Below are positions 612 through 24,032 of a DNA stretch of 24,032 nt, piece after piece. The notes beneath the pieces were generated by a model. The model was not told the DNA's origin. It searched no databases and worked only from the letters and a program-made list of their open reading frames with translations. Both the position numbers and the translations under genes were made by a program. The stretch lies in the IMG/VR virus record IMGVR_UViG_3300035698_013424, positions 1 through 24,032 of that record; one strand, given 5' to 3'. Origin of the DNA: a virus. Positions within the stretch are counted from its first letter, which is position 1, and the number at the start of each line of letters is the position of its first letter.

Positions 612-732
612 CTTTTGCCTCCCTTTTGCCCTGATCAATGCCGCGTCTAAAGATACGCGCGACCAAGGCAGCCACAGAAAGAGCCCCGGCAAGAATTACC
701 AGAGCCCATAATTTCAGCCGACCGGGGATCAT
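499..732 (-). CDS. Probable i-spanin (Rz-like), one TM plus coiled coil
   Basis: The 77-residue product has a membrane segment at about residues 8-26 (LWALVILAGALSVAALVARI) followed by a highly charged, heptad-like helix (residues 30-75, rich in K, R, E, D). This is the usual i-spanin plan of an inner-membrane anchor with a periplasmic coiled coil. The start at 732 overlaps the endolysin stop as ATGA, implying translational coupling; a longer in-frame start at 804 would lie inside the endolysin gene and is less likely. It overlaps the downstream lipoprotein gene out of frame. Function is inferred from topology and position, not from a sequence motif. Confidence 0.65.
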   Translation of the reverse strand: MIPGRLKLWALVILAGALSVAALVARIFRRGIDQGKREAKDEGIEFDQGRAADLRRRVDAARGRVYDQQSDKRGYRD

Positions 733-1349
733 TCGCGCCCCATTTTCATCGCGCGCCATACCACCACACCAAGTGCAACAGCCGCCAATGCAGTGAAGCC
801 CCAAGTCATTATATGATCAGGCAACACCGGAGCCGCCTCAGTGAGTACGCGCTCGGCTGCAACCGCGACCAACGTGACCGTGCCGCCTTCTTTGGCAGCT
901 TGGGTAACGCGCGCCGGAACTTCCTCTGGCGCAAACCGGGTCTCACGAATTGGGAACTTTGTGCCCCAAGAGCGCGCTGGGCCAGTATCGATGTGCATGA
1001 AGCCCTGGCGCGGATAATAGCCAAAGCCCTTAAACCCGACAGATCGAGCCACCGCCTCGAATTCAACCGGGTCATGGTTTTCCATACGGATATCGAAAGC
1101 CTGGCCCTTCATGTGGTAGGAGCCGGTAGCGCCACCAACGCGGCGATTGTGCGCTGGATCACGATAAGCCGAAGTAACCAACATAGGCGCATCGATACGG
1201 ATGCGCAGAACCTCAAGCATATCCAGAGACGCCTCATCCAGCTTAAGAGATCCGTCGCCCTTAGAGGCCAACTCGGCCGGGGTGAAGTGACGCCAGCGCC
1301 AATCCGTAGCCAAGCTATGATGGGAAAACTCAATCATTTTTTTAGTCAT
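729..1349 (-). CDS. Endolysin, M15-type D-Ala-D-Ala carboxypeptidase-like, with C-terminal TM
   Basis: A 206-residue protein. Residues 15-125 form a peptidase M15_3-like zinc peptidase domain: HFTPAELASK at the start, SAYRDPAHNRRVGG, then SYHMKGQAFD (zinc ligands His79 and Asp86) and GFMHID (His119). It should cut peptide cross-links in peptidoglycan during lysis. After an Ala-rich linker there is a hydrophobic segment at about 181-199 and a basic tail, so the enzyme is probably membrane-anchored at its C-terminus. The start at 1349 has GGAGG 5 bases upstream and overlaps the preceding gene by 8 bases; it is preferred over the upstream in-frame start at 1457. Confidence 0.85.
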   Translation of the reverse strand: MTKKMIEFSHHSLATDWRWRHFTPAELASKGDGSLKLDEASLDMLEVLRIRIDAPMLVTSAYRDPAHNRRVGGATGSYHMKGQAFDIRMENHDPVEFEAVARSVGFKGFGYYPRQGFMHIDTGPARSWGTKFPIRETRFAPEEVPARVTQAAKEGGTVTLVAVAAERVLTEAAPVLPDHIMTWGFTALAAVALGVVVWRAMKMGRE

Positions 1350-1800
1350 TACGACCTCCACGTTTGCCCCGGCGGGGAAACCGAAGACGATTAATAAACC
1401 CGCCAAAGAGATTGTGGTCTGGATAGAATGCAGCCGTCCAAACCGACCAGCCGCCACGATCCGTCAAAGGGATCAGTAGCCACAGCAAAACGAGCAAATG
1501 GTAGAGCCCGCGCAAGAAAACCAGAGTAAACACGACATTAACCGCCAATCCGGTCCAGCCGTACCAAACGGCCCAAACGCCAGGAAAGACACCGCCCAAG
1601 AACGACGGAGTGACATCCCAATAAAATGAGCGCGCGAGGTAGGCGACCACGACCAAGGTGATACCAGCCGACAGCCGATAAGTGGTGCCGTCTCCCTGTT
1701 TGACAGCGCGAGGCGTGAACCCACGAACAACCATCACGCCAAAGAATAGCGCGACCGAAAAGAGCGACCAAAGACCCAAAAGCGACAAGTTAGACAACAT
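1342..1800 (-). CDS. Polytopic membrane protein of the lysis block (holin candidate)
   Basis: The 152-residue product has about three to four hydrophobic segments: residues 4-26, 45-60, 68-98 and 100-112, then a C-terminal tail very rich in Arg, Lys and Gly. It sits directly before the endolysin, overlapping it by 8 bases, and its own start overlaps the preceding small gene. Position and topology make it a holin candidate, but no family motif is recognised, and 152 residues is long for a holin. The upstream small membrane protein at 1962-2189 is an alternative holin. Confidence 0.6.
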   Translation of the reverse strand: MLSNLSLLGLWSLFSVALFFGVMVVRGFTPRAVKQGDGTTYRLSAGITLVVVAYLARSFYWDVTPSFLGGVFPGVWAVWYGWTGLAVNVVFTLVFLRGLYHLLVLLWLLIPLTDRGGWSVWTAAFYPDHNLFGGFINRLRFPRRGKRGGRND

Positions 1801-2222: not shown

Positions 2223-2693
2223 TCACGCGCCCCTTACGTCTAAAGATTGGCTCGGCTTGGACCGCGCTGCCTCTGGCGGTTTTCCCGCAATAACTCGGCG
2301 GACAGCGGTCACATCGATACAAAGCCACTCAGCGATCTCAGTGGCGGAATAGGAATGTTCCTCATGCAGCACACGGATGCCGATCCTGCGCCAATTGCGC
2401 TCGATGTAGCGCAGGTTTGAAGTTTGCAGGATTTCCCCCCCAAACTCGCGAGATAGGGTCTTAGCATCACGCCAGCCAATCATGCGGACCAAATCGTGAT
2501 TGATCGGAAGTGTTTTAGGGACATAGAAACAAACGCGCCACGATCTGCCTGTTGCCCCCCGCATCTTGCCAACCAGGCTGCAGACGACAGTGCGACCAAC
2601 CACGGCCGCCAACTCACCCGCAACACCCTCAAGCGGCAATTGGAGAGCGCCGCCCGAGCTTTGCATTTGTAGATCAGTCACCAGAGAGTCCAC
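2223..2693 (-). CDS. Mor-like late transcription activator
   Basis: The 156-residue product follows the Mor/C activator plan of Mu-like phages: an N-terminal helix region (VAGELAAVVG, residues 24-33), a central strand with WRVCFYVPK (52-60), then GWRDAKTLSREFGGEIL (73-89), and a C-terminal helix-turn-helix YSATEIAEWLCIDVTAVRRVI (115-135). Mor family proteins bind a dyad next to a weak -35 region and switch on middle or late genes. Here it ends the early/replication part and precedes the lysis genes, which fits. Start uncertain: GTG at 2693 overlaps the previous gene by 20 bases; GTG 2681 or ATG 2666 are options. The C-terminal GKPPE is encoded by the 18-bp repeat. Confidence 0.7.
   Translation of the reverse strand: MDSLVTDLQMQSSGGALQLPLEGVAGELAAVVGRTVVCSLVGKMRGATGRSWRVCFYVPKTLPINHDLVRMIGWRDAKTLSREFGGEILQTSNLRYIERNWRRIGIRVLHEEHSYSATEIAEWLCIDVTAVRRVIAGKPPEAARSKPSQSLDVRGA
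2270..2287 (-). repeat. 18-bp late repeat, copy 1
   Basis: On the minus strand this reads CGGGAAAACCGCCAGAGG. It is identical to the copies at 17104-17121 and 21928-21945 and has the same orientation. Here it lies in the 3' end of the Mor-like gene, about 80 bases before the next start codon at 2189. Confidence 0.85.
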
Positions 2694-2928: not shown

Positions 2929-3203
2929 GACCGCCGCTGTTTGGCGTTGAGCCGTTGTCCGGCAAATTTAAGCGCGCGAGCGATATCGGCCGCCAGCTCA
3001 TCCTTCAAACCCAATTGAGCCTGGACCTGATACGCGCCATCCAGCTCATCCAGTGAATGCAGGTGCAGACGAACTGGCCGGGATTCCAAACGACCAGGAC
3101 GCGCGGTGTGCACAACACAATCACCGGCATCAACATCCACGGTCACTGTAGCGCGACCAAAGACGTGCCCAAAGCGATCGGGATCAATATGCGGCGACGT
3201 CAA
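2925..3203 (-). CDS. Hypothetical protein of the replication operon
   Basis: The 92-residue product is of unknown function. It is joined to the replication initiator by an ATGA overlap at 3203-3200 and to the next gene by another at 2928-2925. The first half is probably beta (ATVTVDVDAGDCVVHTARPG, RLHLHSLDEL); the second half is a charged helix ending in KQRRS. No motif or family is recognised. Confidence 0.6.
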   Translation of the reverse strand: MTSPHIDPDRFGHVFGRATVTVDVDAGDCVVHTARPGRLESRPVRLHLHSLDELDGAYQVQAQLGLKDELAADIARALKFAGQRLNAKQRRS

Positions 3204-4033
3204 AACGACACCTCAACAGCCCGGCATTGTTCGCGGGTTATTTCGCCAGAGTTGAGCAACTGGCGAACAATCTCAGCAGGGCAGTGACGGGCAAGGTTTC
3301 CCTTCGCACCAACAAACGCATCAATCCACGATTGCTGAATGGACGGCGCAGTCTTTGGATCAGCGGCCTTCACAGCATGCTGCTCCCACCGACGCTGCGA
3401 AAGCCAATTTTGAGGAAGCGCGATATAGCGCACTTCATTGCCCTTTTGCTCGACAGCGTAGGCCTTAGCAGCACCGATCAGATCATCAGGCAAAGCCCCG
3501 GATTTCAAAGCATCGATCAATTCAGCCTCAATCACATCACGAACGCCAGAGCGGGGATACACCGCAATGAAATCATCCAAGAAACCAATATCGAAATCGA
3601 TTGTTTGCGGCTCGGCTTCCGAGGCGCAAGGTTTAGTTACTGGTTCTCTTACAAGGTTAGTGTCGCATTTTGCGACACGGCTATCGCCATTTTTGCGACA
3701 CGGCTCTGGCGTTTTTTGCGACACGGCCCGTGTCTCATTTTGCGACACGGCTAAGTCATGATCGAATGCCAGCTCGTAGTAGGTCGAAAGCTGCCTTTTG
3801 GTGCGCGGACAGATGCGAGGCACGCGCCGAACAAGGCCGCGAAGCTCAAGCAAATCTAGGTTGCGATTGACCGTTGCGCGGTGCATTTCAGCATCAACCG
3901 CCAACAGATCCTGAGACGGATCACAGCGTTTCGTGTCCTTGTTGTGCCGATCAGCAAGGTGCCACAGCAATATCTTTGTGGCGGGTTTTAGACCGCGCTG
4001 CTGGATGGCCCAATTTGTGGCGGCGTGGCTCAT
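3200..4033 (-). CDS. Phage replication initiator-like protein (wHTH plus C-terminal domain) containing iterons
   Basis: A 277-residue protein. Residues 5-75 form a winged helix-turn-helix (LKPATKILLWHLADRH, then DLLAVDAEMHRATVNRNLDLLELRGLVRRV) as in RepO-type initiators. Residues 150-216 carry the segment FIAVYPRS ... YIALPQNWLSQRRWEQ, matching the C-terminal module common in phage replication proteins (pattern YPR ... hPatWL..rW). The linker at about residues 94-122 is polar and is where four DNA iterons lie, the same arrangement as lambda O, whose gene contains its own origin. Its ATG overlaps the VRR-NUC stop. No helicase loader or primase motif is seen, so host DnaB/primase would have to be recruited. 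Confidence 0.75.
   Translation of the reverse strand: MSHAATNWAIQQRGLKPATKILLWHLADRHNKDTKRCDPSQDLLAVDAEMHRATVNRNLDLLELRGLVRRVPRICPRTKRQLSTYYELAFDHDLAVSQNETRAVSQKTPEPCRKNGDSRVAKCDTNLVREPVTKPCASEAEPQTIDFDIGFLDDFIAVYPRSGVRDVIEAELIDALKSGALPDDLIGAAKAYAVEQKGNEVRYIALPQNWLSQRRWEQHAVKAADPKTAPSIQQSWIDAFVGAKGNLARHCPAEIVRQLLNSGEITREQCRAVEVSF
3660..3752 (+). other. Probable replication origin: four iterons inside the initiator gene
   Basis: On the plus strand TTTTGCGACACGGC occurs at 3668, 3691, 3714 and 3738, so the spacing is 23, 23 and 24 bases, about two helical turns plus. The first and last copies extend into dyads: GTGTCGCA-TTT-TGCGACAC at 3660-3678 and a one-mismatch dyad at 3728-3750. The repeats pass through more than one codon phase of the initiator gene, which argues for DNA-level rather than protein-level selection. 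The likely role is binding of the protein encoded around it, as for lambda O. Confidence 0.75.
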
Positions 4034-5019: not shown

Positions 5020-5050
5020 ATAATAGGGGATTATAGTCCCCTAATGTCAA
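5020..5050 (-). promoter_or_regulatory. Leftward early promoter with repressor operator OL
   Basis: On the minus strand TTGACA (5050-5045) precedes the dyad GGGGACTATAATCCCC (5041-5026), and a -10-like TATTAT lies at 5025-5020. The -35/-10 spacing would be 19 bases, with other AT-rich registers possible. The operator occupies the spacer, so a bound repressor would block RNA polymerase. Related dyads occur at 6354-6369 and 6383-6398. Confidence 0.65.
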
Positions 5051-5101: not shown

Positions 5102-5443
5102 ATGAGAAATTTCCGTGAATCACTTCTTGAGAAGCTCGTCGAGACTGGTACTTCACTGCGTCAAGTCGCAGAGGGCACCGGTGTCTCCTACGAGCAACTG
5201 AAGAAGTTGAAACAAGTCGAAACGCGAAAAATGAATGTTGATGATGCGATCAAAGTAGCGAGATACTTCGATTTGACACTTGAAGAACTTATTGCGGGTC
5301 AGCCAGCGTCAGCCCAATATCAGATAATGGTCGTTCTGCAGTCGCTATCAGCTGAGTCCCGTGAGTTTCTAATGAATGCTGCAAAAGCTCAATTTGACGC
5401 TGAGGAGAAGGCTCGTCAGCAATCTGGGAAAGAAACCGAATGA
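5102..5443 (+). CDS. Xre/CI-type phage repressor
   Basis: The 113-residue product has an N-terminal Cro/C1-type helix-turn-helix (LVETGTSLRQVAEGTGVSYEQLKKLKQ, residues 12-38, then DAIKVARYFDLTLEELIAG) and a helical C-terminal part (SLSAESREFLMNAAKAQ) that could dimerise. There is no S24/LexA peptidase domain, so induction would not be by self-cleavage. It diverges from the Cro-like gene across an 88-base region holding both operator types. It probably holds the lytic (leftward) and early (rightward) promoters silent through the GGGGA(N6)TCCCC sites. No Shine-Dalgarno before its ATG. Confidence 0.75.
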   Translation: MRNFRESLLEKLVETGTSLRQVAEGTGVSYEQLKKLKQVETRKMNVDDAIKVARYFDLTLEELIAGQPASAQYQIMVVLQSLSAESREFLMNAAKAQFDAEEKARQQSGKETE

Positions 5444-6327: not shown

Positions 6328-6352
6328 ACCGGTTAGCGGCTAGTCCCCAAAA

Positions 6353-6406
6353 AGGGGATTATAATCCCCTAAAGTAATTGACGGGGATAAAAGTCCCCAT
6401 TAGGTT
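6353..6406 (+). promoter_or_regulatory. Rightward early promoter with two repressor operators
   Basis: The perfect 18-bp palindrome AGGGGATTATAATCCCCT (6353-6370) is followed by GGGGATAAAAGTCCCC (6383-6398). A -35-like TTGACG (6378-6383) and a weak -10-like TAGGTT (6401-6406) are 17 bases apart and bracket the second operator, as in the leftward promoter. A further GTCCCC half-site lies at 6343. This promoter would drive the operon from 6435 through the SSB and Xis genes. Confidence 0.65.
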
Positions 6407-14907: not shown

Positions 14908-15031
14908 CTACCAGACCCTCAATCCACCAATTGAAACGCGAGCTGGGCATCGCCATGATTTCGGCGTGACCCCAGCCGGTGCGAGACGCCAGGATTAGAA
15001 CACCCGAGCGCAACACATCCGGCTCAAGCAT
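14888..15031 (-). CDS. gpE'-like extension, reached by -1 frameshift from E
   Basis: A 47-codon frame (MLEPDVLRSGVLILASRTGW, later AEIMAMPSSRFNWWIEGL) matching the short GpE'/GpE family pattern of a W followed by an acidic-hydrophobic helix and a W motif. Its frame is the -1 frame of gene E, continuous with it at the slippery site 15043-15049. The product is therefore most likely made as an E-E' fusion of about 150 residues, the tail assembly chaperone pair of P2-like phages. Independent initiation at the ATG 15031, which overlaps the E stop, is possible. It overlaps the tape-measure start by 20 bases. Confidence 0.75.
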   Translation of the reverse strand: MLEPDVLRSGVLILASRTGWGHAEIMAMPSSRFNWWIEGLVDGKPTA

Positions 15032-15339
15032 TACCCGTACAAAAAACCCAGCGCCTCCTGGAGCCGAATGAAATCACGCATCATAATGCCACGCAGATCA
15101 TCCGGGGCAATTTCCGCCAGATTGGCGATCAACGCGACCTCCGCCTCGGCACTATTGCTGTTTTTTTGCGATGTTAGCTGATCCTCGAGAGACGGCTCGC
15201 GCAGCTTTACAGATGTGACCTTTGCACCCGCGACTAGAAAGCCGCGAGCAAGAGTGACGGTCAGAGAGTTATCCGACCCCTCTTTGATGTATTCCGGGTA
15301 AATTGACGCCTCGGGTTTTTCCGCTGTTTTTGCCATCAT
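15031..15339 (-). CDS. E: Tail assembly chaperone gpE
   Basis: A 102-residue product of the phage tail assembly (P2 gpE/Mu gp41-like) family: YIKEGSDNSLTVTLARGFLV, KLREPSLEDQLTSQ, then LIANLAEIAPDDLRGIMMRD and FIRLQEALGFL at the end. It coats the tape measure during tube polymerisation. It ends in a canonical G GGT TTT slippery heptamer that allows -1 shifting into E'. Two Met codons begin the frame (15339, 15336). Confidence 0.88.
   Translation of the reverse strand: MMAKTAEKPEASIYPEYIKEGSDNSLTVTLARGFLVAGAKVTSVKLREPSLEDQLTSQKNSNSAEAEVALIANLAEIAPDDLRGIMMRDFIRLQEALGFLYG
15043..15049 (-). promoter_or_regulatory. Programmed -1 frameshift site in E/E'
   Basis: Codons CTG GGT TTT TTG contain G GGT TTT in the X XXY YYZ register, three codons before the E stop codon. 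A -1 slip continues as TTT GTA CGG GTA ATG CTT, directly into the E' frame. Confidence 0.75.
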
Positions 15340-15347
15340 ACCGCCCC

Positions 15348-15854
15348 TTAAATACCAATAGCCGCGCGCCGCGCAGCCAACTGATCAACACCGTTAATCA
15401 CGCGCGTCATGTTAAGGACGTCGATGTTGTGAATTTCACGACCATCCAGCTCCTCGGAAAAGAAATCGCAGCGAACAGTGACGGTCAAAGGAGCCATCTG
15501 CCCAGGCGACCAGGTGCCACGTTCAATACGAGTGATCTTGCCGCGCAGGCGATGAACCGACGCTTTGACCGTGCCGTCATAACTTTCGACAGCACCGCGC
15601 GCGGTGAAGTTAACGCTTTCACCCTCGGCAACGCCCCAAAGTGTCAGGACGTCGAAATCATAAGCGGTAAGCACGAAAGACGCCTCAAGCCCCTCCATGC
15701 CCATATCGAGCGCGATCGGGGCATCCATACCACCGGCCCGAAAGTCCTCGGTTTGCACCGCGAGAGGAGGTGCAGAATATTCGGAGACGTTGCCAGCATA
15801 GCCCCGGCCGTCCACGAACAGATTAAAATTGCGAAGGATATCACGAGCGGCCAT
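15348..15854 (-). CDS. FII: Major tail tube protein gpFII
   Basis: A 168-residue protein of the P2 FII family: ILRNFNLFVDGRGYAGNVSE, PLAVQTEDFRAGGMDAPIAL, DMGMEGLEASFVLTAYD, then MTRVINGVDQLAARRAAIGI at the C-terminus. It stacks as hexamers to form the inner tube. Its ATG overlaps the sheath stop by one base (TAATG), giving strong coupling between sheath and tube. Confidence 0.93.
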   Translation of the reverse strand: MAARDILRNFNLFVDGRGYAGNVSEYSAPPLAVQTEDFRAGGMDAPIALDMGMEGLEASFVLTAYDFDVLTLWGVAEGESVNFTARGAVESYDGTVKASVHRLRGKITRIERGTWSPGQMAPLTVTVRCDFFSEELDGREIHNIDVLNMTRVINGVDQLAARRAAIGI

Positions 15855-17041
15855 TAGGAAAGTGCCTCCGAAATGTAGGTGTCAACCAGGTGAGAGCGGA
15901 ACGTGATATGTTCCGCAGGATAGGGAGGCGTGAATTCAAGATTAAAATACACCTTCCCCTCGAGGATGGAAGCCGGAGTGTTTAGATCCGGGTCCGGGAA
16001 ACAACGCCCTCCGAGTAGCGCGCCCAGCTCGACAAGAGTGGCAATGTAGCCATTCACGCCGTCCGACACGTCCTCCAGGTAGGTTTTCGTGATATTGCGA
16101 TCGACAGCCCAAAGATGCGCGCGCTGCAGGCTTTCGTGGAGGATATCGGCCGTGCGCCGCACAGAGATAAACTGGAATTTTGGATCATCGGTCGGCACCC
16201 GGTTGCCCCACAGACGGAAGCCGTCCTGGCGGATGATTGTGGCCACATCATTCTCGTTCAAGAGATTGGCGCGAGACGACGCATCACCCAACTTGAAATC
16301 GACCGGGCGAGCCGTGCCGATAATGCCGAAAATGCCTTTGTTAGAAGGCGACCACCAAAAGCCGCGATCGTTATCCGTGCGAGCGATAACACCCGCAACC
16401 CGAGCCGAACTAGGCTCCACAACAACATCGCCCGCGCCGTCCAAAACCTTGACCCAAGGATCAACGACATAAACCCGACCCGAGGTGCCCCAATCGGCCG
16501 CATGCGTTTGAGCAGCCGCGTCCGTGGTGTTTGGACCATCAGCGACAATGATGGAGCGCAGGCGAGAGGCGATGCCCTCAAGCTCGGCAATAACCGGGTT
16601 TGCAGCATCCGAGGGACGCTGGTGTGTCCAGCCCGGCGCGCAAAGGATGCGCGGCGCAAAGCCGACAACACTCTCAGCAGCAGCAAGCGCATGAACGCCC
16701 TCATAAGCGCCGTTATTTGCATCAACACCGCCAACGATATTAGCCAGAGTAGCCGCCTCGTCCGCGCCTTCCTCAACCCGAACCACGATAACCACCGCAC
16801 CGATTTGATCGAAAATGCCGTCGAGAGCGGATGGCAGAGAGCCGAGCCCGGTCCCGACCGTGTCCAGTTTTGCCGCTTCCAGGCGATTGCCCGCGATCAG
16901 AACTGGAGTGTTTAAAGGGAATGCGGTCGCATCGGCATTTGTGGCAGTGCCCACGATACCGATAACGCCCGATCGCACCGTGCGGATCGGCCGAGCGCCG
17001 GTGTCCACCTCGATGACTTCAACGCCGTGTAAGAATGCCAT
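15854..17041 (-). CDS. FI: Tail sheath protein gpFI
   Basis: A 395-residue protein matching P2 FI: start FLHGVEVIEVDTGARPIRTV, then GVIGIVGTATNADA, PRILCAPGWTHQRP, the GFWWSPSNKGIFGI and GFRLWGNRVPTDD blocks, and a C-terminal TPPYPAEHITFRSHLVDTYI. It forms the contractile sheath, so this phage is a myovirus. The 18-bp repeat lies about 63 bases before its start, inside the preceding gene. Confidence 0.96.
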   Translation of the reverse strand: MAFLHGVEVIEVDTGARPIRTVRSGVIGIVGTATNADATAFPLNTPVLIAGNRLEAAKLDTVGTGLGSLPSALDGIFDQIGAVVIVVRVEEGADEAATLANIVGGVDANNGAYEGVHALAAAESVVGFAPRILCAPGWTHQRPSDAANPVIAELEGIASRLRSIIVADGPNTTDAAAQTHAADWGTSGRVYVVDPWVKVLDGAGDVVVEPSSARVAGVIARTDNDRGFWWSPSNKGIFGIIGTARPVDFKLGDASSRANLLNENDVATIIRQDGFRLWGNRVPTDDPKFQFISVRRTADILHESLQRAHLWAVDRNITKTYLEDVSDGVNGYIATLVELGALLGGRCFPDPDLNTPASILEGKVYFNLEFTPPYPAEHITFRSHLVDTYISEALS

Positions 17042-17065
17042 TTTTATCCGCTCCGATGATTGCCG

Positions 17066-17518
17066 CTATTCAGGACGATCATCACGACGCGGCCGGGGTG
17101 TTTCCTCTGGCGGTTTTCCCGACGCGATAATGGCGCCTGAAATGATCTCATCAAGGCTGGCATAGGAGCGGCGGTAGTCAAACGAACCGAACTGGCCCAA
17201 AACCCGCACCGCGAGGTAAAACAAGAGGCTGATCAAAATAGCAGTGAGGAATTTTAGGTGCCGCGAACCGCCGCGATACTGCCGCGCCGCGTCTCGCAGC
17301 ATTGCCTTGAAAAACAGCCAATCACAGCGCGCGCGATCCCAACGATCGCCACCGACCCAATAGCCAAAGTCGTGGTGACGCCAGCTGGCATCTTTGAAAT
17401 ACCAACTGGCGTTTTTAGTTATCCAGGCGCGAGCCCGGACAGAGAGCCAACTCGGCCCGATGCCGTTCCCAAATTGCAGCTGCTGCGCGGCCGTCAAATC
17501 ATAAAAAGACGGCCGCAC
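17066..17518 (-). CDS. Phospholipase A2-like membrane protein in the tail cluster
   Basis: A 150-residue product from a GTG at 17518, with GAGG 9 bases upstream; the frame remains open to an ATG at 17557 inside the previous gene. Residues 17-22 (GNGIGP) look like a calcium loop, 46-52 (WRHHDFG) like the PLA2 His-Asp dyad (His49/Asp50), and RARCDWLFFKAM (62-73) like the second PLA2 helix with its Asp. A membrane segment follows at 90-108, then a polar tail whose GKPPEET is encoded by the 18-bp repeat. Inferred: a lipid-cleaving protein used in entry or lysis. No such gene occurs at this place in P2. Confidence 0.55.
   Translation of the reverse strand: MRPSFYDLTAAQQLQFGNGIGPSWLSVRARAWITKNASWYFKDASWRHHDFGYWVGGDRWDRARCDWLFFKAMLRDAARQYRGGSRHLKFLTAILISLLFYLAVRVLGQFGSFDYRRSYASLDEIISGAIIASGKPPEETPRPRRDDRPE
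17104..17121 (-). repeat. 18-bp late repeat, copy 2
   Basis: Same CGGGAAAACCGCCAGAGG on the minus strand, in the 3' end of the PLA2-like gene, about 63 bases before the sheath start. The match with copy 3 extends through AAAC and, after a 4-base gap, CGGCCGC. Confidence 0.85.
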
Positions 17519-17522
17519 CCAA

Positions 17523-18011
17523 TTATGCCTCGGGAACGCCCAGCGCGATCTCGGCACGCCGTGCCTCGGTGATCAAACCAGCTTGGGCCAAACCGGCCAA
17601 ACCGCCAACGACCATCGAAGTCTCGATGTTGAGCGTTTCCATTTGCGGATTGTCCAGCACGTCATAAAGCGCATCGAGCGTGAACTTTAAGACCAACTCC
17701 TGCTCGCCGGTGCCAGAGTATGCCCGCGCCATTCGGATCGCGACCTGCTCTTGAATGGTGAACAACATTTTGAACTCAACGCGACTGACCAAGGTGCGGA
17801 ATTGTGGCACCGGATCAACGGCTGCAGGTTCTTCTGGATGCGTCCACATCTGCCCGTTTTTTGACGACAGCCGCGTGGTCAAATCAGGAACTTCGATAAA
17901 CTCGCCCGCAATATCTGGGTGGAACCGTTCCGCAGGATCACCGTCGATCAAGTCGATCACCAAGCGGTCACCGTCGTCATTCGCGTCTGTCATTCTTGCA
18001 AATTTTGTCAT
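17523..18011 (-). CDS. Hypothetical protein after the fibre gene, possible fibre chaperone
   Basis: A 162-residue product; the ATG at 18011 follows the fibre stop with GTGGAG upstream. N-terminus acidic (DANDDGDRLVIDLIDGD), then a Pro-rich stretch, then a helical domain (VEFKMLFTIQEQVAIRMARA, ELVLKFTLDALYDVLDNPQM, VVGGLAGLAQAGLITEARRAEI). Genes at this position often code for fibre assembly factors, and the FTIQE(Q/R)xAIRMAR helix recalls such proteins, but no defined family is recognised. Confidence 0.6.
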   Translation of the reverse strand: MTKFARMTDANDDGDRLVIDLIDGDPAERFHPDIAGEFIEVPDLTTRLSSKNGQMWTHPEEPAAVDPVPQFRTLVSRVEFKMLFTIQEQVAIRMARAYSGTGEQELVLKFTLDALYDVLDNPQMETLNIETSMVVGGLAGLAQAGLITEARRAEIALGVPEA

Positions 18012-18012
18012 T

Positions 18013-19026
18013 TCACCACTCCACAACTACGAGGCCGTGGCCACCACGACCACCAGCAGCACTGCCACCAGCGCCGCCACCAGCACCAAAACCACCAATG
18101 GCAAAGAGGCCAGAACCGGCATTATAGCCATTACCTCCACCGCCACCACAGACGCCGCCGTTGCCGCCATTTGCTCCGGTACCGGAACCGTTTGCACCGC
18201 CGCCGCCACCGCCACCGCCGTCACCACCAGTGCCAGCATTACCGCCTGCGCCGCTGCTCACCGTTCCATTACCTCCATGTCCTCCAAAAAAGTCTGTAGG
18301 AAAACGGATCAATTGACCTGTAGGATTAGATAAAAGCGTTCCAAGAACATCTAACCCGCCATCGTTTGAGTTTGCAGATTGTGTTGAACTACCCCCGCCA
18401 CCACCAACGGCACCAGCACCGTCCGCGCCATTATTGCCTGCGATGCCGCCACCGCCGCCACCAGCGTTGCCATTTGCATTGCCGCCATTGCCCCCATTGC
18501 CAAGTTGGGTCGCGGCACCGCCGCCACCGCCACCAGTATGGGCGTTGCCGCCGTGACCGCCGCGCCCGCCGATGAACTGAGCCAGCCCTCCGGTACCAGC
18601 ACCGGCAAGCCCCGTTGTGGCCCCATTGCTAGAAGCGCCTCTGCCGCCGGTCGCGGAAATGAGACTGGCAAAAGATGACGAACCACCAGTCGCTCCAGTG
18701 CTGCCTTTAGCCCCACCAGAACCAACTGTAACAGCATGAGATGAACCAGGCACCAAATCAAAAATGCCCCAAGCAAAACCGCCGCCACCGCCACCGCCAG
18801 CCGGTCCCTGGCTAACATCGCGAGCGCCGCCGCCTGCGCCCAATACGCGGATGCGCGCTTTTGTTATTCCAGCCGGAACCTGAAAGTTTCCCGAACCAAG
18901 AAACACCTGATACAACCCATTGCCAAAAATATCTTGGCCTTGAAGTCGAGGAACACCAGAAACCCCAAACTGAGTGAATTCCGAACCGCCTGCCGACACC
19001 GCTGCTGCAGAAATAAACCGCCCCAT
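18013..19026 (-). CDS. Glycine-rich tail fibre tip / adhesin
   Basis: A 337-residue protein. Residues 1-60 (FISAAAVSAGGSEFTQFGVS, YQVFLGSGNFQVPAGITKA) form an attachment domain; the rest is dominated by Gly-rich runs (GGGGGG, GGNGGNANGNAGG, GGRGGHGG) and ends GLVVVEW. Gly-rich fibre tips of this sort form polyglycine-II sandwich lattices that expose variable loops to the host receptor, as in S16-like gp38 adhesins. Likely the host-range determinant. The repetitive DNA produces long antisense open frames that are not genes. Confidence 0.8.
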   Translation of the reverse strand: MGRFISAAAVSAGGSEFTQFGVSGVPRLQGQDIFGNGLYQVFLGSGNFQVPAGITKARIRVLGAGGGARDVSQGPAGGGGGGGFAWGIFDLVPGSSHAVTVGSGGAKGSTGATGGSSSFASLISATGGRGASSNGATTGLAGAGTGGLAQFIGGRGGHGGNAHTGGGGGGAATQLGNGGNGGNANGNAGGGGGGIAGNNGADGAGAVGGGGGSSTQSANSNDGGLDVLGTLLSNPTGQLIRFPTDFFGGHGGNGTVSSGAGGNAGTGGDGGGGGGGGANGSGTGANGGNGGVCGGGGGNGYNAGSGLFAIGGFGAGGGAGGSAAGGRGGHGLVVVEW

Positions 19027-19341
19027 TTAAACGTCCTCCTCAAAGCCATGAGCGCGGTAGGAAACCACGCCCGTATCATCTTGCACCACGATCTTCTCGC
19101 CAGCCGCGCAAACCAGCGCGGTCACATGCAGCACGCCGCTGCTAGGCAACGGAGCATCGTACTCGATCCAATCTTTATTGCCTGCCGTGGCATCCGACGT
19201 GATCGCGATCCGCACCTTTGCAGCGTCCGCGCCACGATTGACGCAAATCAAATTCGCAGTCGTCACATGCGCGGCAGGCACCGTGTAAAGAGTGGCAGCG
19301 GTATCCGCCGCCGGGGCAACACTGCCCAGTTTTCCCGTCAT
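19027..19341 (-). CDS. Small beta-rich fibre-associated protein
   Basis: A 104-residue product, ATGA-coupled to the gpH-like gene before it and separated by no base from the glycine-rich fibre. Predicted beta-sandwich: TAATLYTVPAAHVTTANLIC, AAKVRIAITSD, WIEYDAPLPSSGVLHVTALV, EKIVVQDDTGVVSYRAHGF. Similar short proteins with the LYTVPA pattern occur in fibre regions of Rhodobacterales phages. Probably part of the fibre; the precise role is unknown. Confidence 0.65.
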   Translation of the reverse strand: MTGKLGSVAPAADTAATLYTVPAAHVTTANLICVNRGADAAKVRIAITSDATAGNKDWIEYDAPLPSSGVLHVTALVCAAGEKIVVQDDTGVVSYRAHGFEEDV

Positions 19342-20024
19342 GATTGCTCTCCAAAATAAGCCCGTGATTTACGTTTGCGCAGGGATGGAGCCTGCGAAAG
19401 AATGGTGGCCAGCGCGTCCCGCGTCACTTTCTTAGGCAAATCGGCACTCGCGTCCTGGACGACAAACCGATCGAGAGCGCCGTCGAACTGCGCAGCCGTA
19501 AGACTGCCCAGCGCGCCAAGGTCTAAAGCAATGGTGCGATCGACTAAAAGATCACCGCCGCCTTTCAGACCCGCAGCGGCGTTAACTTCACGCTCGCCAG
19601 GCACCATAGAACTTGCCGCCTCGATACGAATGACGAGGTTTTCCAAGTCGGAAAAAACAACAATGACATCAAGCGACAGCGCAAAGCCGACCGGCTTATT
19701 TATGGGCAGCGGATATTTGACGATCGCGATCAAATCACCATCATCGTCCAGCAAGCCGACCTCGCGAATATCCGAAAACGGACCCGCATCAACAGCAAGC
19801 TCGATGCGGAAAAACGCCTCGTTTGCATTGCCGGTTTGGCCCTGGGCCATGACAGCCACACGGCCGGTTTCATTTACCAGCGCCGTCTCGCCCCCGGTCG
19901 GTGAATAGTTACCGTCACCAAAAGCGATGTGCGTGATATTGATAACGCCACCGCCCGAGACAGCAAGCGCGGCCGCCTCTTTGTTGCGGCCCACATTTGT
20001 CAGAAATCCATAAGGTTGTGTCAT
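19338..20024 (-). CDS. H: Tail fibre protein gpH, N-terminal DUF3751-type part
   Basis: A 228-residue protein. Residues 1-150 match the phage tail-collar fibre domain of P2 gpH: YGFLTNVGRNKEAAALA, INITHIAFGDGNYSPTGGET, FSDIREVGLLDDDGDLIAIV. It joins the fibre to the baseplate. P2 gpH is much longer; here the distal part is missing and the receptor-binding role is probably taken over by the separate small beta protein and glycine-rich protein downstream. Confidence 0.85.
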   Translation of the reverse strand: MTQPYGFLTNVGRNKEAAALAVSGGGVINITHIAFGDGNYSPTGGETALVNETGRVAVMAQGQTGNANEAFFRIELAVDAGPFSDIREVGLLDDDGDLIAIVKYPLPINKPVGFALSLDVIVVFSDLENLVIRIEAASSMVPGEREVNAAAGLKGGGDLLVDRTIALDLGALGSLTAAQFDGALDRFVVQDASADLPKKVTRDALATILSQAPSLRKRKSRAYFGEQS

Positions 20025-20665
20025 GTGACCCTTTCAACTCTTACGGCTGGCCCAATGATTTGAGCCCAGCCGGTGACGCCACAGCCTGCAGCCGTGGACA
20101 CGATAGGCGCAGGCGGGATGCCCCCGATGTTTAGCGCGCGCATGCGATGATAGGACGTCGCACCAAGATAAGTGCGCGCGCGCGATTGGATCACAGCCGA
20201 CACATCATAGTGCGCGCTGGCCGGTTTCACTCGATCGATAACCAAGACCAGCTGATCGATCACATCAGAGATAAGCACACCGGACGTGAGCAATTCGGCA
20301 ACCGACAAACGCACAGTGAATGTGCCAGGATCAGCGCCCTGCGCAGCACCCGCCTCCCACCATTCAATGATTTGAGCATCAGACCCGAGAGACGCGATAG
20401 CCAACTCGACTGCGCGCCGCGTGCCCTTGCGGCGATGGACCTCAACGGATCGCTCAATAACGGCCCGTTTGACCGGCTCGCTCCAGGACGCGTCCCACAC
20501 ATCGACGGAAAACGCCCAGGCAAGCCAAGGCAACACGGACAACGGGCAGCTTTGTGGGTTCCACAAATCCGCAATCGGTACTGGCACATCCGACAGCCGC
20601 GCCGTTGATTGATCGAGTGCGACCTCGGCATTTGTGGCGTTAGATGGGAGCAAGCGATCAGACAT
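20021..20665 (-). CDS. I: Tail protein gpI, baseplate
   Basis: A 214-residue protein of the P2 gpI family: LLPSNATNAEVALDQSTARL, VPIADLWNPQSCPLSVLPWL, AWAFSVDVWDASWSEPVKRA, VHRRKGTRRAVELAIASLG. It forms the outer part of baseplate wedges. The start at 20665 overlaps the J stop and has GGTGG 5 bases upstream; a longer start at 20725 is inside J. Confidence 0.93.
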   Translation of the reverse strand: MSDRLLPSNATNAEVALDQSTARLSDVPVPIADLWNPQSCPLSVLPWLAWAFSVDVWDASWSEPVKRAVIERSVEVHRRKGTRRAVELAIASLGSDAQIIEWWEAGAAQGADPGTFTVRLSVAELLTSGVLISDVIDQLVLVIDRVKPASAHYDVSAVIQSRARTYLGATSYHRMRALNIGGIPPAPIVSTAAGCGVTGWAQIIGPAVRVERVT

Positions 20666-21557
20666 CAGTGCCACCCACAACAACAGTGACGCCGGTGCAG
20701 AATGTGGCCTCGGTACCGCCAACAACGATATCGGCCGCAGGCGTGGTCAAGGTCACGTTTTGAACACCGGGCTGGTGAAGTGCGGCGAAAATGGCCGAGC
20801 GCGTCACATCGTGCCCGAGACGACGCATGGACGCGACATAAGCCAAAACAGCCGCCTCGGCTGACGCTTCGATTAAAGCGGCATCAGGACCAGGATAAAG
20901 AGTTAAAGTGGCATCGATCGCGTAACTGGAGATCGATGCAGCGACCACAGTGACAACATCGGTCAATGGGCGGATTTCATCAGACGAAAGCGCAGCAAGA
21001 ACGATGGCCAAAAGAGCATCGGTAGGCGCGCCATCGCCCTGGCGAGACAGGATCGTGACGACAACAGCGCGTGGCGTTGGGCTGGCAACGGAGACGTCCA
21101 AAACATCAGGATCAGCGCCCAGCGCATGGAAAATATATGCCCCAGATGGACCGGCGGTGCTAAAACCCTCAAACGACAACTGAACCCGACGCCGCAGATC
21201 CGTGTCGTTTTCATAGGTCGCCAGAGTTGGTGGGGTTGCAGCCGGATCAGCCGCGACCAAGACAAAGCGTGCCAGGTTATAATTTGCAGCAATTTGATCC
21301 AGGTCCGCACCAGCTGCATAGCCGAGCATCACAGCGAGAGCGCCATCATTGACGCGCTGCCGAATAAGCGTCTCACGATACGCCGCAACTTCTAGAATTT
21401 TGAACGCCGGATCACTCTCGACCAAAGCGTCAAACTCAGGCGCGCGCGCACGTAGATCCGCGAGCATCGCTGCCAGAATTGTCTCATAGTCCAGCGCCTG
21501 GACAACATCAGGAGGTGCCAGCAAAGACAGATCAACCGCAGTAAAGGCCCCACTCAT
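20658..21557 (-). CDS. J: Baseplate J-like protein gpJ
   Basis: A 299-residue protein of the baseplate J family (T4 gp6-like): LLAPPDVVQALDYETILAAM, DLRARAPEFDALVESDPAFK, ILEVAAYRETLIRQRVNDGA, AGADLDQIAANYNL, then DVSVASPTPRAVVVTILSRQ. It makes the wedge ring that triggers sheath contraction. Its ATG overlaps the W stop (ATGA). Confidence 0.95.
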   Translation of the reverse strand: MSGAFTAVDLSLLAPPDVVQALDYETILAAMLADLRARAPEFDALVESDPAFKILEVAAYRETLIRQRVNDGALAVMLGYAAGADLDQIAANYNLARFVLVAADPAATPPTLATYENDTDLRRRVQLSFEGFSTAGPSGAYIFHALGADPDVLDVSVASPTPRAVVVTILSRQGDGAPTDALLAIVLAALSSDEIRPLTDVVTVVAASISSYAIDATLTLYPGPDAALIEASAEAAVLAYVASMRRLGHDVTRSAIFAALHQPGVQNVTLTTPAADIVVGGTEATFCTGVTVVVGGTDV

Positions 21558-21916
21558 TGCGCCACCTCAATGCCGTCAAGCGTGACCTGCCGACCATCCG
21601 GTAAATAGTTTGCCGTTATTGAAAGCGAGATCCGGCCAACTTCGACACTATCCGCAATAACAGAGACGACATCGATGCGAGGCTCCCAGGCGGCCAACGC
21701 TTCAGCCGTCGCGGTGTAGAGATCGAGCAAGATCGAGCCGTTCATAGGCGCATCGACCAGGCGATACAGGCGAGAACCATAGTCACGACGCATCACCCGA
21801 CTGCCAATCGGAGTGGTCAGAATATCCGTGATGGATTGGCGCAAGTGGCCAAGACCATCGAGCGCCGCGCCGTTTGATGCGTTAATGCCATTCATTACCA
21901 GAGCATCGACGCGCAT
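21554..21916 (-). CDS. W: Baseplate wedge protein gpW (gp25-like)
   Basis: A 120-residue protein with the P2 gpW/T4 gp25 pattern: LDGLGHLRQSITDILTTPIG, SRVMRRDYGSRLYRLVDAP, AALAAWEPRIDV-type WEPRI block and a final DGIEVAQ. It links sheath and wedge at the baseplate. The ATG at 21916 has AGAGG about 11 bases upstream, within the 18-bp repeat; ATG 21895 is an alternative start. First gene of the tail run; the usual preceding gpV spike gene is absent. Confidence 0.92.
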   Translation of the reverse strand: MRVDALVMNGINASNGAALDGLGHLRQSITDILTTPIGSRVMRRDYGSRLYRLVDAPMNGSILLDLYTATAEALAAWEPRIDVVSVIADSVEVGRISLSITANYLPDGRQVTLDGIEVAQ

Positions 21917-21927
21917 GCGGCCGGTTT

Positions 21928-21945
21928 CCTCTGGCGGTTTTCCCG
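21928..21945 (-). repeat. 18-bp late repeat, copy 3
   Basis: Identical to the copies at 2270 and 17104, here outside any gene, 12 bases before the gpW ATG. Its CAGAGG end also supplies the probable Shine-Dalgarno sequence of gpW. Confidence 0.85.
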
Positions 21946-21952
21946 AAGGGAC

Positions 21953-21966
21953 TAAACCGGTTTAGG
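21953..21966. promoter_or_regulatory. Perfect 14-bp palindrome before gpW
   Basis: CTAAACCGGTTTAG lies between the upstream accessory gene and gpW. In RNA its CCGGTTT half could instead pair with AAACCGG just after the gpW Shine-Dalgarno, and GGTTT-AG-TCCC-TTC-GGGA-AAACC forms another hairpin. Operator or RNA switch is possible. Confidence 0.45.
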
Positions 21967-21971
21967 CTCCT

Positions 21972-22268
21972 TTACGGGGTGTTTGGTTTTTCTAACGCGG
22001 CGTCGTGTTCGTGGCGATGAACCAGCCCCATGAGCCTTGCACACCAGAATACGTGTGGCTTACTTCTGTCCCATCGGCCCCACCCCACGCCGTCTAAAAC
22101 TGCGCACGCCTCGTCAACACCTAAACCGCCACGACGAGCCAACGTCTCAAGAGATTGGCTGTGGTTGTTTTCCGCCTGACCTGACTTCGGGGCCAAAACC
22201 TCCCACGGTATGGCTTTCAACATATCACTTCCCATAATGGGAAACATGCGTTGATGTCTTACGGGCAT
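21972..22268 (-). CDS. Conserved phage hypothetical
   Basis: A 98-residue product with an excellent AGGAGG 6 bases before the ATG. The block LKAIPWEVLAPKSGQAENNH, SQSLETLARRGGLGVDEACA, VLDG resembles a short phage protein with the pattern W..LAPHE.QA..NH.Q.LE.LA.RGGLS..EA. Function unknown. The C-terminus (KPNTP) and the following CGTAAAGGAG resemble the end of the preceding gene (PTNP, CGTAAAGGAGG), hinting at a local duplication. Confidence 0.7.
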   Translation of the reverse strand: MPVRHQRMFPIMGSDMLKAIPWEVLAPKSGQAENNHSQSLETLARRGGLGVDEACAVLDGVGWGRWDRSKPHVFWCARLMGLVHRHEHDAALEKPNTP

Positions 22269-22280
22269 ATCAAGCCTCCT

Positions 22281-22499
22281 TTACGGGTTGGTTGGTTTAG
22301 GCGGGATAAATTCAGAAATGGCGGCGACTAGAGCGCCATAAGACCCCCTTTCAACAACAATCTGTGCTTCCCCATGTTTGATAAAAAGCCGCCCCCAGTT
22401 TTCGGTAATTGTAACAGCACCGAAATCCACGTCCATTACCGGCATAGGCAAAATTTGCTCAACGGTAACAGTTTTTCCTGCGTTATGCGGTGTACTCAT
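22281..22499 (-). CDS. Small hypothetical, accessory block
   Basis: A 72-residue product; the ATG at 22499 has AGGAG 5 bases upstream, better than the in-frame ATG at 22523. Beta-type alternation (VTVEQILPMPVMDVDFGAV, RLFIKHGEAQIVVERGSYG), then AISEFIPPKP. No family recognised. Confidence 0.6.
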   Translation of the reverse strand: MSTPHNAGKTVTVEQILPMPVMDVDFGAVTITENWGRLFIKHGEAQIVVERGSYGALVAAISEFIPPKPTNP

Positions 22500-22507
22500 G
22501 TCGGCTC

Positions 22508-22765
22508 CTATTGTGAACGCCATACGAGCCAGTCAAGTAGCAAACTCGGCTCATCCGCTGCATGCAGCAAATCAAGTAATTCTTCTTCACCTACGAGGTG
22601 CGGGATTTTATTGTTAGCAACTGAGCGATTGAGCTCAGTTAGATAGCAAATCCAGCCCGACACCGGGTCCGTTACGATGTACTTTTCATCTGTGAATGTC
22701 ACATCTAGGTCTATGGTTTGACCGTTCGCTAGCGATATCGACTTCTTGAATTCTTTAGTGTTCAT
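22508..22765 (-). CDS. Small hypothetical, accessory block
   Basis: An 85-residue product from the ATG at 22765 (AAGGGA upstream). First part beta (SISLANGQTIDLDVTFTDEK, YIVTDPVSGWICYLTEL), then an acidic Leu-rich helix (EEELLDLLHAADEPSLLLDW). It could be a small adaptor; no known family. Confidence 0.6.
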   Translation of the reverse strand: MNTKEFKKSISLANGQTIDLDVTFTDEKYIVTDPVSGWICYLTELNRSVANNKIPHLVGEEELLDLLHAADEPSLLLDWLVWRSQ

Positions 22766-22779
22766 TTGCTGTAATCCCT

Positions 22780-23217
22780 TCAATTTTTTGCGCTGCGCAC
22801 ACCGCACATTCTGTTTAACTGCGAACGCGACAGGTCTATGCCCGTGCGCCGCCTTGCCGTCGCCTGCACCGCATCAGGAGGCTGCGATCCATGCCATTGA
22901 CCGCAAATCACGGTCTTATCATCTGGCTCAATTTCACTTATTCGGCCAGTCTTCTTGCGGGTAGCACGGGGCAATGGGCGTTCTTCCAGCGTTGCTCCGA
23001 TAGCCTTCACACGATCAACGTTGCGCTTTGCGCCCGCCCCGTGGCCTAGCTGCGACTTTGCGCAAACCACCAGTATATCGCCAGACTTCAAACCGCCGCT
23101 TTCCAGCAATGCCGCAAGGTCTAAGCGTTCTGTTTTTGGCGTATCAATAAACGTCTTTTCAACCAGCCAATCGGCGGTGATGTCAGCGTTCTTGTCATAG
23201 ATGTATGCAATTCTCAT
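22780..23217 (-). CDS. Resolvase-fold-like protein without catalytic serine
   Basis: A 145-residue product. Residues 1-80 follow the layout of a serine-recombinase N-terminal domain: MRIAYIYDKNAD (normally Y.RVS), TERLDLAALLESGGLKSGDI, LVVCAKSQLGHGAGAKRNVD, IGATLEE. The catalytic Ser is absent, and the Arg residues of the usual DRLGRS motif are replaced (KSQLGHG). Residues 85-145 are basic, with RRRTGIDLSRSQLNRMCG as a possible DNA-binding helix pair. It may therefore be a DNA-binding regulator derived from a recombinase. No Shine-Dalgarno is visible. Confidence 0.5.
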   Translation of the reverse strand: MRIAYIYDKNADITADWLVEKTFIDTPKTERLDLAALLESGGLKSGDILVVCAKSQLGHGAGAKRNVDRVKAIGATLEERPLPRATRKKTGRISEIEPDDKTVICGQWHGSQPPDAVQATARRRTGIDLSRSQLNRMCGVRSAKN

Positions 23218-23246
23218 TGTGTCAGACTTAACCTAAGCTGCACAAC

Positions 23247-23305
23247 CGCACAATACTTTATTCGGCTTTAGTGTTGACCTAATAAACCGCACAATGTATT
23301 GTGCG
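23247..23305 (+). promoter_or_regulatory. Divergent promoter region with CGCACAAT operator
   Basis: TTGACC (23274-23279) and TATTGT (23297-23302) are 17 bases apart and point right. The dyad CGCACAAT-GT-ATTGTGCG (23288-23305) covers the -10, and a half-site CGCACAATA lies at 23247. It would control the gene at 23359, and perhaps the leftward gene at 23217. Confidence 0.6.
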
Positions 23306-23358
23306 TTTAAGGGGTCAAATTGATCCGAAACCGAACACACCAACGAGGGACCGACAGC

Positions 23359-23808
23359 ATGAAAGACGAAGCCCCAAAAGAGTATCGGCTAAGAAGCGAG
23401 ATTGAGCGCGCGGGTTGGTATTGGTCGGCATCTGACGATAGTGGTTGCTATGGCCCTTTTGACACCCCCGAAGAAGCGCGGGCGGAATTTTGGCATGACG
23501 GCGCAGGCGAGGATATCTTCAACGAATGGGTCTCTGACGGGGATCATCCAGACTTAACAAAGGAAACATTCTTGGCTGACTGGGAGTACATCCAGCACCT
23601 ATCTTCTTGGCCAATATCCACAGACATTTTTGACGCCGATCGCGCCATCGAAGACCTTGAGGAAAAGAACGAAGAGGCGGTCTGGGGTGAATGCGAACCA
23701 ACTTGGCCAAAAGAACACAAGCGCGAACTCGAACAGATGCTTGGACAGGCCCTGTTTGATTGGATGAAAAAGCATGATCTCTGGAAAGAGTTTCGCAGCC
23801 TGCAATAA
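23359..23808 (+). CDS. Acidic, Trp-rich hypothetical protein
   Basis: A 149-residue product; the ATG at 23359 has GAGGGA 8 bases upstream, preferred over 23320. It begins with a GWYWSASDDSGCYGPFDTPE segment resembling a common phage/plasmid short motif (gWyw...g.yGPF.T.eeA), followed by a helical acidic domain. About 38 Asp/Glu against 16 Lys/Arg, and roughly ten Trp. A DNA-mimic or anti-defence role is only a speculation based on charge. Regulated by the operator just upstream. Confidence 0.65.
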   Translation: MKDEAPKEYRLRSEIERAGWYWSASDDSGCYGPFDTPEEARAEFWHDGAGEDIFNEWVSDGDHPDLTKETFLADWEYIQHLSSWPISTDIFDADRAIEDLEEKNEEAVWGECEPTWPKEHKRELEQMLGQALFDWMKKHDLWKEFRSLQ

Positions 23809-23820
23809 AGGACCGATGAA

Positions 23821-24032
23821 GTGCCGCGACACTGCCCAGACTGCACCGCACAGATGGCCGATGATGGCGTGAATTGCTGGTGCGAAGATGGTGGCTGCAT
23901 CTTCGCGGGGAATGTCAGGCTTACAGATGGCAAGATTGATCGTAACCACACAAACTGGACAATAAACATGAACGAATTTACAGCCGCAGACGCCACCGCA
24001 GAAAGCATTGCGGACGCGATGGAAACACTGGA
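23821..24032 (+). CDS. Cys-rich N-terminus of a hypothetical protein, cut by window edge
   Basis: A frame open to the right edge from a GTG at 23821, with AAAGGA 8 bases upstream. N-terminus HCPDC ... NCWCEDGGC (Cys5, 8, 19, 21, 26) looks zinc-binding. Further on, ATG 23968 in the same frame (MNEFTAADATAESIADAMETL) could instead be the true start of a separate gene. Function unknown. Confidence 0.45.
   Translation, partial: MPRHCPDCTAQMADDGVNCWCEDGGCIFAGNVRLTDGKIDRNHTNWTINMNEFTAADATAESIADAMETL

Follow-up and report, generated by a model that had tools for sequence, protein, structure and literature searches.

An 18-bp repeat ahead of phage late genes as the predicted activator-binding half of a late promoter set

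Three copies of an 18-bp repeat beside late gene blocks

Why does one 18-bp sequence recur, letter for letter, ahead of the lysis genes, the sheath gene and the gpW gene of a single virus? The initial annotation of this DNA had proposed a DNA or RNA control element, perhaps the target of a Mor-like activator, or a small mobile repeat. We scanned the window, which is the whole virus record of 24,032 bp with positions counted from its first letter, and found CGGGAAAACCGCCAGAGG in three exact copies, all on the minus strand, at 2270-2287, 17104-17121 and 21928-21945, as had been annotated. Comparison of all window 18-mers revealed that this is the sole one with three copies on either strand, and no extra copy was observed in the window at up to three mismatches. 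Three copies are far beyond chance; the shuffled window gave a mean of 0.05 matches and never three. Between the second and third copies, the identity extends to 22 bp.

Each copy was also confirmed to precede a late block. The first lies within the 3' end of the Mor-like gene (2223-2693, minus strand), next to the lysis genes, and the lysis block downstream of it encodes an endolysin-like M15 peptidase (729-1457, minus strand; PF08291 and PHROG endolysin). The second lies in the end of ORF 17066-17557, next to the operon for sheath, tube and tape measure that begins with the tail sheath gene (15854-17041, minus strand; PF04984, PF17482). The third, next to the gpW operon, is noncoding. Copies 1 and 2 are in-frame and both encode GKPPE with identical wobble bases (AGKPPEAAR in the Mor-like protein and SGKPPEETP in the ORF product), which bears out the earlier description of two gene ends in one frame and a noncoding third copy.

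Overall, the window carries a tail block with the sheath gene, gpW and other P2-like genes, the lysis block with the M15 endolysin, and an integrase. Head genes are absent from the 24,032 bp; most likely, the record covers part of a genome that is circular or permuted. As the head genes are missing, only three of the five sites at which relatives carry the element are visible in the window.

Spacing to a -10-like hexamer and the gpW start

A -10-like hexamer was observed 20 nt downstream of each of the three window copies, and in 11 aligned copies an A2/T6 hexamer begins 21 nt past the end of each. On the minus strand, the hexamers are CAATCT (2244-2249) for the predicted promoter P-lys, GATGAT (17078-17083) for P-sheath and GATGCT (21902-21907) for P-gpW, with a predicted +1 at 2237 (about 48 nt before the ATG at 2189), 17071 (30 nt before the sheath ATG) and 21895, respectively. 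Exact matches to CGGGAAAACCGCCAGAGG were found in three other viral contigs, and additional relatives were gathered by a portal-protein query, independently of the motif. In these portal-gathered relatives, all 49 occurrences of the core motif were on the late strand, with 0 on the opposite strand. Of the 42 sites outside the discovery set, 36 had the A2/T6 hexamer at offset 21, with every other offset below 6, and 38 had a purine as predicted +1.

A broader collection, in which the sites were seeded from the gpW copy, gave 121 sites on the late strand versus 12 on the opposite strand; some of the sampled phages are closely related, and the counts are not independent events. Among 130 sites from 32 records, collected with the same gpW seeding, the -10 was blurred when the alignment was anchored at the gpW ATG (64/130), because the distance between ATG and motif is not identical across phages, and registering on each phage's own motif placed the hexamer at offset 21 in 114/130, with a next-best of 19 and a median of 3. 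The offset test at the 42 sites, like the de novo scans and the leave-phage-out comparison given below, is free of the gpW seeding or less affected by it.

The hexamer consensus is S-A-n-n-M-T, a degenerate and weak -10 of the sigma70 type in which position 1 is G or C at most sites and T in only 3/130. With the -10 set at -12 to -7, the 18-mer spans -50 to -33, and this placement holds whether +1 is set from the -10 or from the gpW ATG. A sigma70 two-box scan of positions 15000-24032 detected no -35 consensus at the two element sites of that region, and its total promoter count was the same as in shuffles. That the scan misses both sites is expected where the -35 is absent.

These positions bear on whether the repeat acts as DNA or as RNA. 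A post-transcriptional element in late mRNA, i.e., a ribosome-binding, processing or antitermination signal, would agree with the orientation of the copies, which is that of transcription, and transcripts from upstream would contain the copy. However, the -10 and +1 at a fixed distance put each copy outside the transcript that it precedes, copies are present inside genes and at varied distances before genes, and no Rfam family (and no tRNA gene) was found in the window; an RNA element is therefore very unlikely. The DNA half of the "DNA or RNA" proposal is supported, while the RNA half is disfavored, since each predicted transcript begins only downstream of its copy.

The spacing also bears on where gpW begins. 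In 30/32 phages, the gpW ATG is 6-7 nt past the -10, at about +1 or +2, and the start chosen by the depositors of the E. coli phage HeidiAbel (9517) coincides with the predicted position, as does the gpW start of a further relative, G002. The first-listed gpW start of the window, 21916, lies upstream of the -10, and so the gpW-like baseplate wedge gene (PF04965, minus strand) should begin at the conserved start 21895, giving 21554-21895 with its ATG at the predicted +1. The Acinetobacter members differ in that gpW begins directly at the stop of the upstream gene. From these positions, gpW appears to be transcribed leaderless, and it would be translated in the same leaderless form.

Conserved locations and phage-specific versions of the motif

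The element was found in Iiscvirinae/Jilinvirus phages and temperate relatives, where, rather than at random places, it recurs at five fixed sites by late genes: the Mor-like gene at its 3' end, directly ahead of the lysis genes, the 3' end of terL, the linker joining the protease and capsid (MCP) domains, a site before the gpW ATG with the motif end about 33-35 nt upstream, and a site upstream of the sheath gene, often about 80-100 nt before it. The additional copies that the initial annotation suggested looking for near head genes are those at the terL end and in the protease-MCP linker of the relatives. HeidiAbel, which was annotated independently, has all five sites, at 2426, 5165, 9467, 13923 and 39193. 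Together with the fixed -10, the purine-rich +1 and the strand count of 49 versus 0, the five late locations strongly support the proposed DNA control element. The annotated records of ECOO78 and HeidiAbel list no promoters at the element sites, and an earlier description of these promoters was not found in the literature covered, to which the original ep3 and PPpW-3 papers did not belong.

In the relatives, in-gene copies are in one reading frame at 59/59 sites. This would favor a conserved GKPPE peptide motif, such as a protein docking or processing tag, but the peptide changes with the DNA motif of the phage (GKPPE, ENPQE, GNPPQ or DTPHE), conservation is just as strong in the noncoding copies ahead of gpW and the sheath gene as in the coding ones, and the nearby -10 is conserved at coding and noncoding sites alike. 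Since the peptide follows the DNA motif and the noncoding copies are equally conserved, the constraint acts on DNA. The single frame is probably the one whose peptide does no harm in a protein tail or linker, and a peptide tag is extremely improbable as the reason for the repeat.

Across dozens of relatives, each phage was found to have its own motif, nearly identical across its sites, examples being GAAACCCACCACAAG at most sites of the relative G031, AAACCCTCATGTGGA in a Paraburkholderia prophage, AAACCCACAAGAGGA in Limnohabitans and GACAAACCCCAAGAAG in HeidiAbel. When sites were re-collected with a profile leaving that phage out, mismatches per 18 positions were 2.49 within a phage versus 5.51 for the same site between phages, a contrast reached in 0 of 2000 shuffles of the phage labels (p ≤ 0.0005). 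De novo scans, with no motif supplied, turned up quite unrelated repeats in Acinetobacter phages (AATTGTGAATAATGAA) and in G033, lying at the same genes and keeping a constant distance to the -10, as well as a repeat in five copies with constant -10 spacing in G004; an exact-seed scan of G005 returned no repeated motif. Copies that are alike within a phage and divergent between phages point to targets of one trans-acting protein per phage.

Near-identical copies within a phage are also what a small mobile or recombinogenic repeat, or a module-boundary sequence, would give, and some recombination process may help to maintain them. Such a sequence would not be expected, however, to keep to one strand, one frame and the same loci across genera, nor to be followed by a conserved -10, and we regard this second proposal of the initial annotation as disfavored to the point of near exclusion. 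The 18-mer is almost certainly, as judged from these comparisons, the site at which a phage-encoded protein docks to switch on the lysis, head and tail genes.

The candidate activator and its relation to known late promoters

The most likely binder is the Mor-like product of 2223-2693 (minus strand, 156 aa). It matches PHROG 836, "late transcriptional activator," with an E value of 1.3e-13, and had no Pfam match up to E 0.05. Among its aligned relatives, 33/33 match PHROG 836, 18/33 match PF08765 Mor (best 9.1e-7) and 15/33 match HTH_23. A structure model of the product (pLDDT 82.6) has C-terminal helices, and HTH fold matches cover residues 94-150 with a best Z of 5.2. No Mor entry was among the matches listed in a whole-model fold search, which were generic HTH only, and a PDB sequence search with the family profile returned a designed repeat protein and other HTH domains but no Mor entry. 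The PHROG 836 activator is present in 30/38 records, and the remaining records are mostly fragments.

We hypothesize that the 18-mer, at -50 to -33, is the upstream, activator-binding half of a late promoter set that has a degenerate sigma70-type -10 at a fixed distance and no -35 box. The element, bound by the Mor-like protein, would stand in for a -35, and the protein would recruit or activate the host RNA polymerase, so that transcription from the elements would induce the lysis, sheath-operon and gpW-operon genes together and late. Two more copies would be expected in the missing head region, one where terL ends and one in the linker between protease and capsid. That the 18-mer is such an activator-binding half, and that the phage Mor-like protein binds it to switch the late genes on, we consider highly probable.

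The earlier suggestion of a Mor-like target gains support from the motif variants, which are common to all sites of one phage, and binding by the 2223-2693 product itself is the predicted step. Motif distance correlates with Mor-like distance given portal (r 0.39, p 0.002) and given gpW (r 0.56, p 0.0002). Given terL, the partial correlation is 0.245 (p 0.05) and terL itself correlates better, so that the genetic-distance test is mixed as to which protein binds. This borderline terL-conditioned Mantel result would fit a late promoter element bound by another phage protein or a host factor, as would the imperfect fit of G020, where repeats are present but the PHROG 836 match carries none of them, and of G032, which has repeats without a PHROG 836 match. 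Another binder would also be in line with two Burkholderiales Mor-like proteins, L107 (3746-4147) and L108 (2704-3084), that are without the usual C-terminal HTH in phages that keep the repeated element. Against another binder, a host factor that is conserved is excluded by the phage-specific motifs. The Mor-like gene, moreover, is syntenic and has the lysis promoter in its own 3' end, annotation places its family among late activators, and the element position matches that of Mor binding in Mu (PMC4390567). A different binder is accordingly unlikely in our judgment, and the Mor-like protein is preferred. As separate observations, G020 (L046) and G032 (L071) may have a second or diverged activator, and the L107 and L108 proteins end in AT-hook-like GRPKKNP/GRPPRNP.

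The predicted promoters resemble the Mor/C-dependent promoters of Mu (Pm; Plys, PI, PP and Pmom), at which an activator element lies upstream of a recognizable -10 without a -35 (PMC4390567, PMC4461284). Shared features are a small HTH activator that probably belongs to the Mor/C family (PF08765 in the 18/33 relatives given above), several late promoters of which one serves the lysis genes, and the element position, about -51 to -36 in Mor/C-type promoters and -50 to -33 here. In contrast to the Mor site of Mu, with its 5-bp inverted repeats and 6-bp spacer, the element here is asymmetric and conserved as a whole over 18 bp, and the dyad that a Mor dimer would be expected to bind is partial at best (CCnC-nn-GnGG, 74-76% at three pairs; 35-41% complementary overall). 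These phages also differ from Mu in their promoter sites, which number five and in three cases fall within coding ends or linkers, and in having an apparently leaderless gpW, a tyrosine integrase or lytic life style, and P2-like tail modules. These comparisons support Mor/C-style late promoters that here form a coordinated, coding-embedded set of five in another phage group.

The tail-gene layout and operon starts of these phages resemble those of P2. The late promoters of P2 are activated by Ogr, with an element TGT-N12-ACA around -55, whereas the activator here belongs to PHROG 836. The window has a single TGT-N12-ACA (2356-2373), which does not fall at -55 relative to any of the three promoters. 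In the Iiscvirinae/Jilinvirus phages ECOO78, Arya, PPpW-3 and HeidiAbel, the gene order is the same, the activator is again of PHROG 836 and equivalent elements are present; the motif sequence differs, varying by phage.

More tentatively, and with somewhat less than even confidence, we propose the full set of features as one system: the Mor-like protein would read an asymmetric 18-bp site as a surrogate -35, five promoters, three of them in coding tails, would co-vary with their activator as orthogonal pairs, and a baseplate gene would be leaderless, with its start codon as the transcription start. The predicted promoters, starts and activator make up a concrete late regulon for a widespread, little-studied phage group, for whose regulation no description was found in the literature searched. 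One motif per phage at five matched sites is a natural experiment on how regulator and promoter specificity change together and supplies candidate orthogonal activator-promoter pairs. Gene starts such as that of gpW can be corrected, identical wobble bases in gene ends can flag promoters, and since HeidiAbel infects K-12, the late-promoter proposal is testable.

Three other features of the window were noted. Repeats of TTTTGCGACACGGC at 3651-3753 lie within a replication-initiator gene (3200-4033) and are iteron-like, as in a lambda-O-like origin. GGGGATTATARTCCCC palindromes at about 5026-5050 and 6350-6400, which are probable early operators, flank an HTH repressor-like gene (5102-5443). Between the fibre region and the sheath operon, ORF 18013-19026 encodes a very glycine-rich, tail-fibre-like product.
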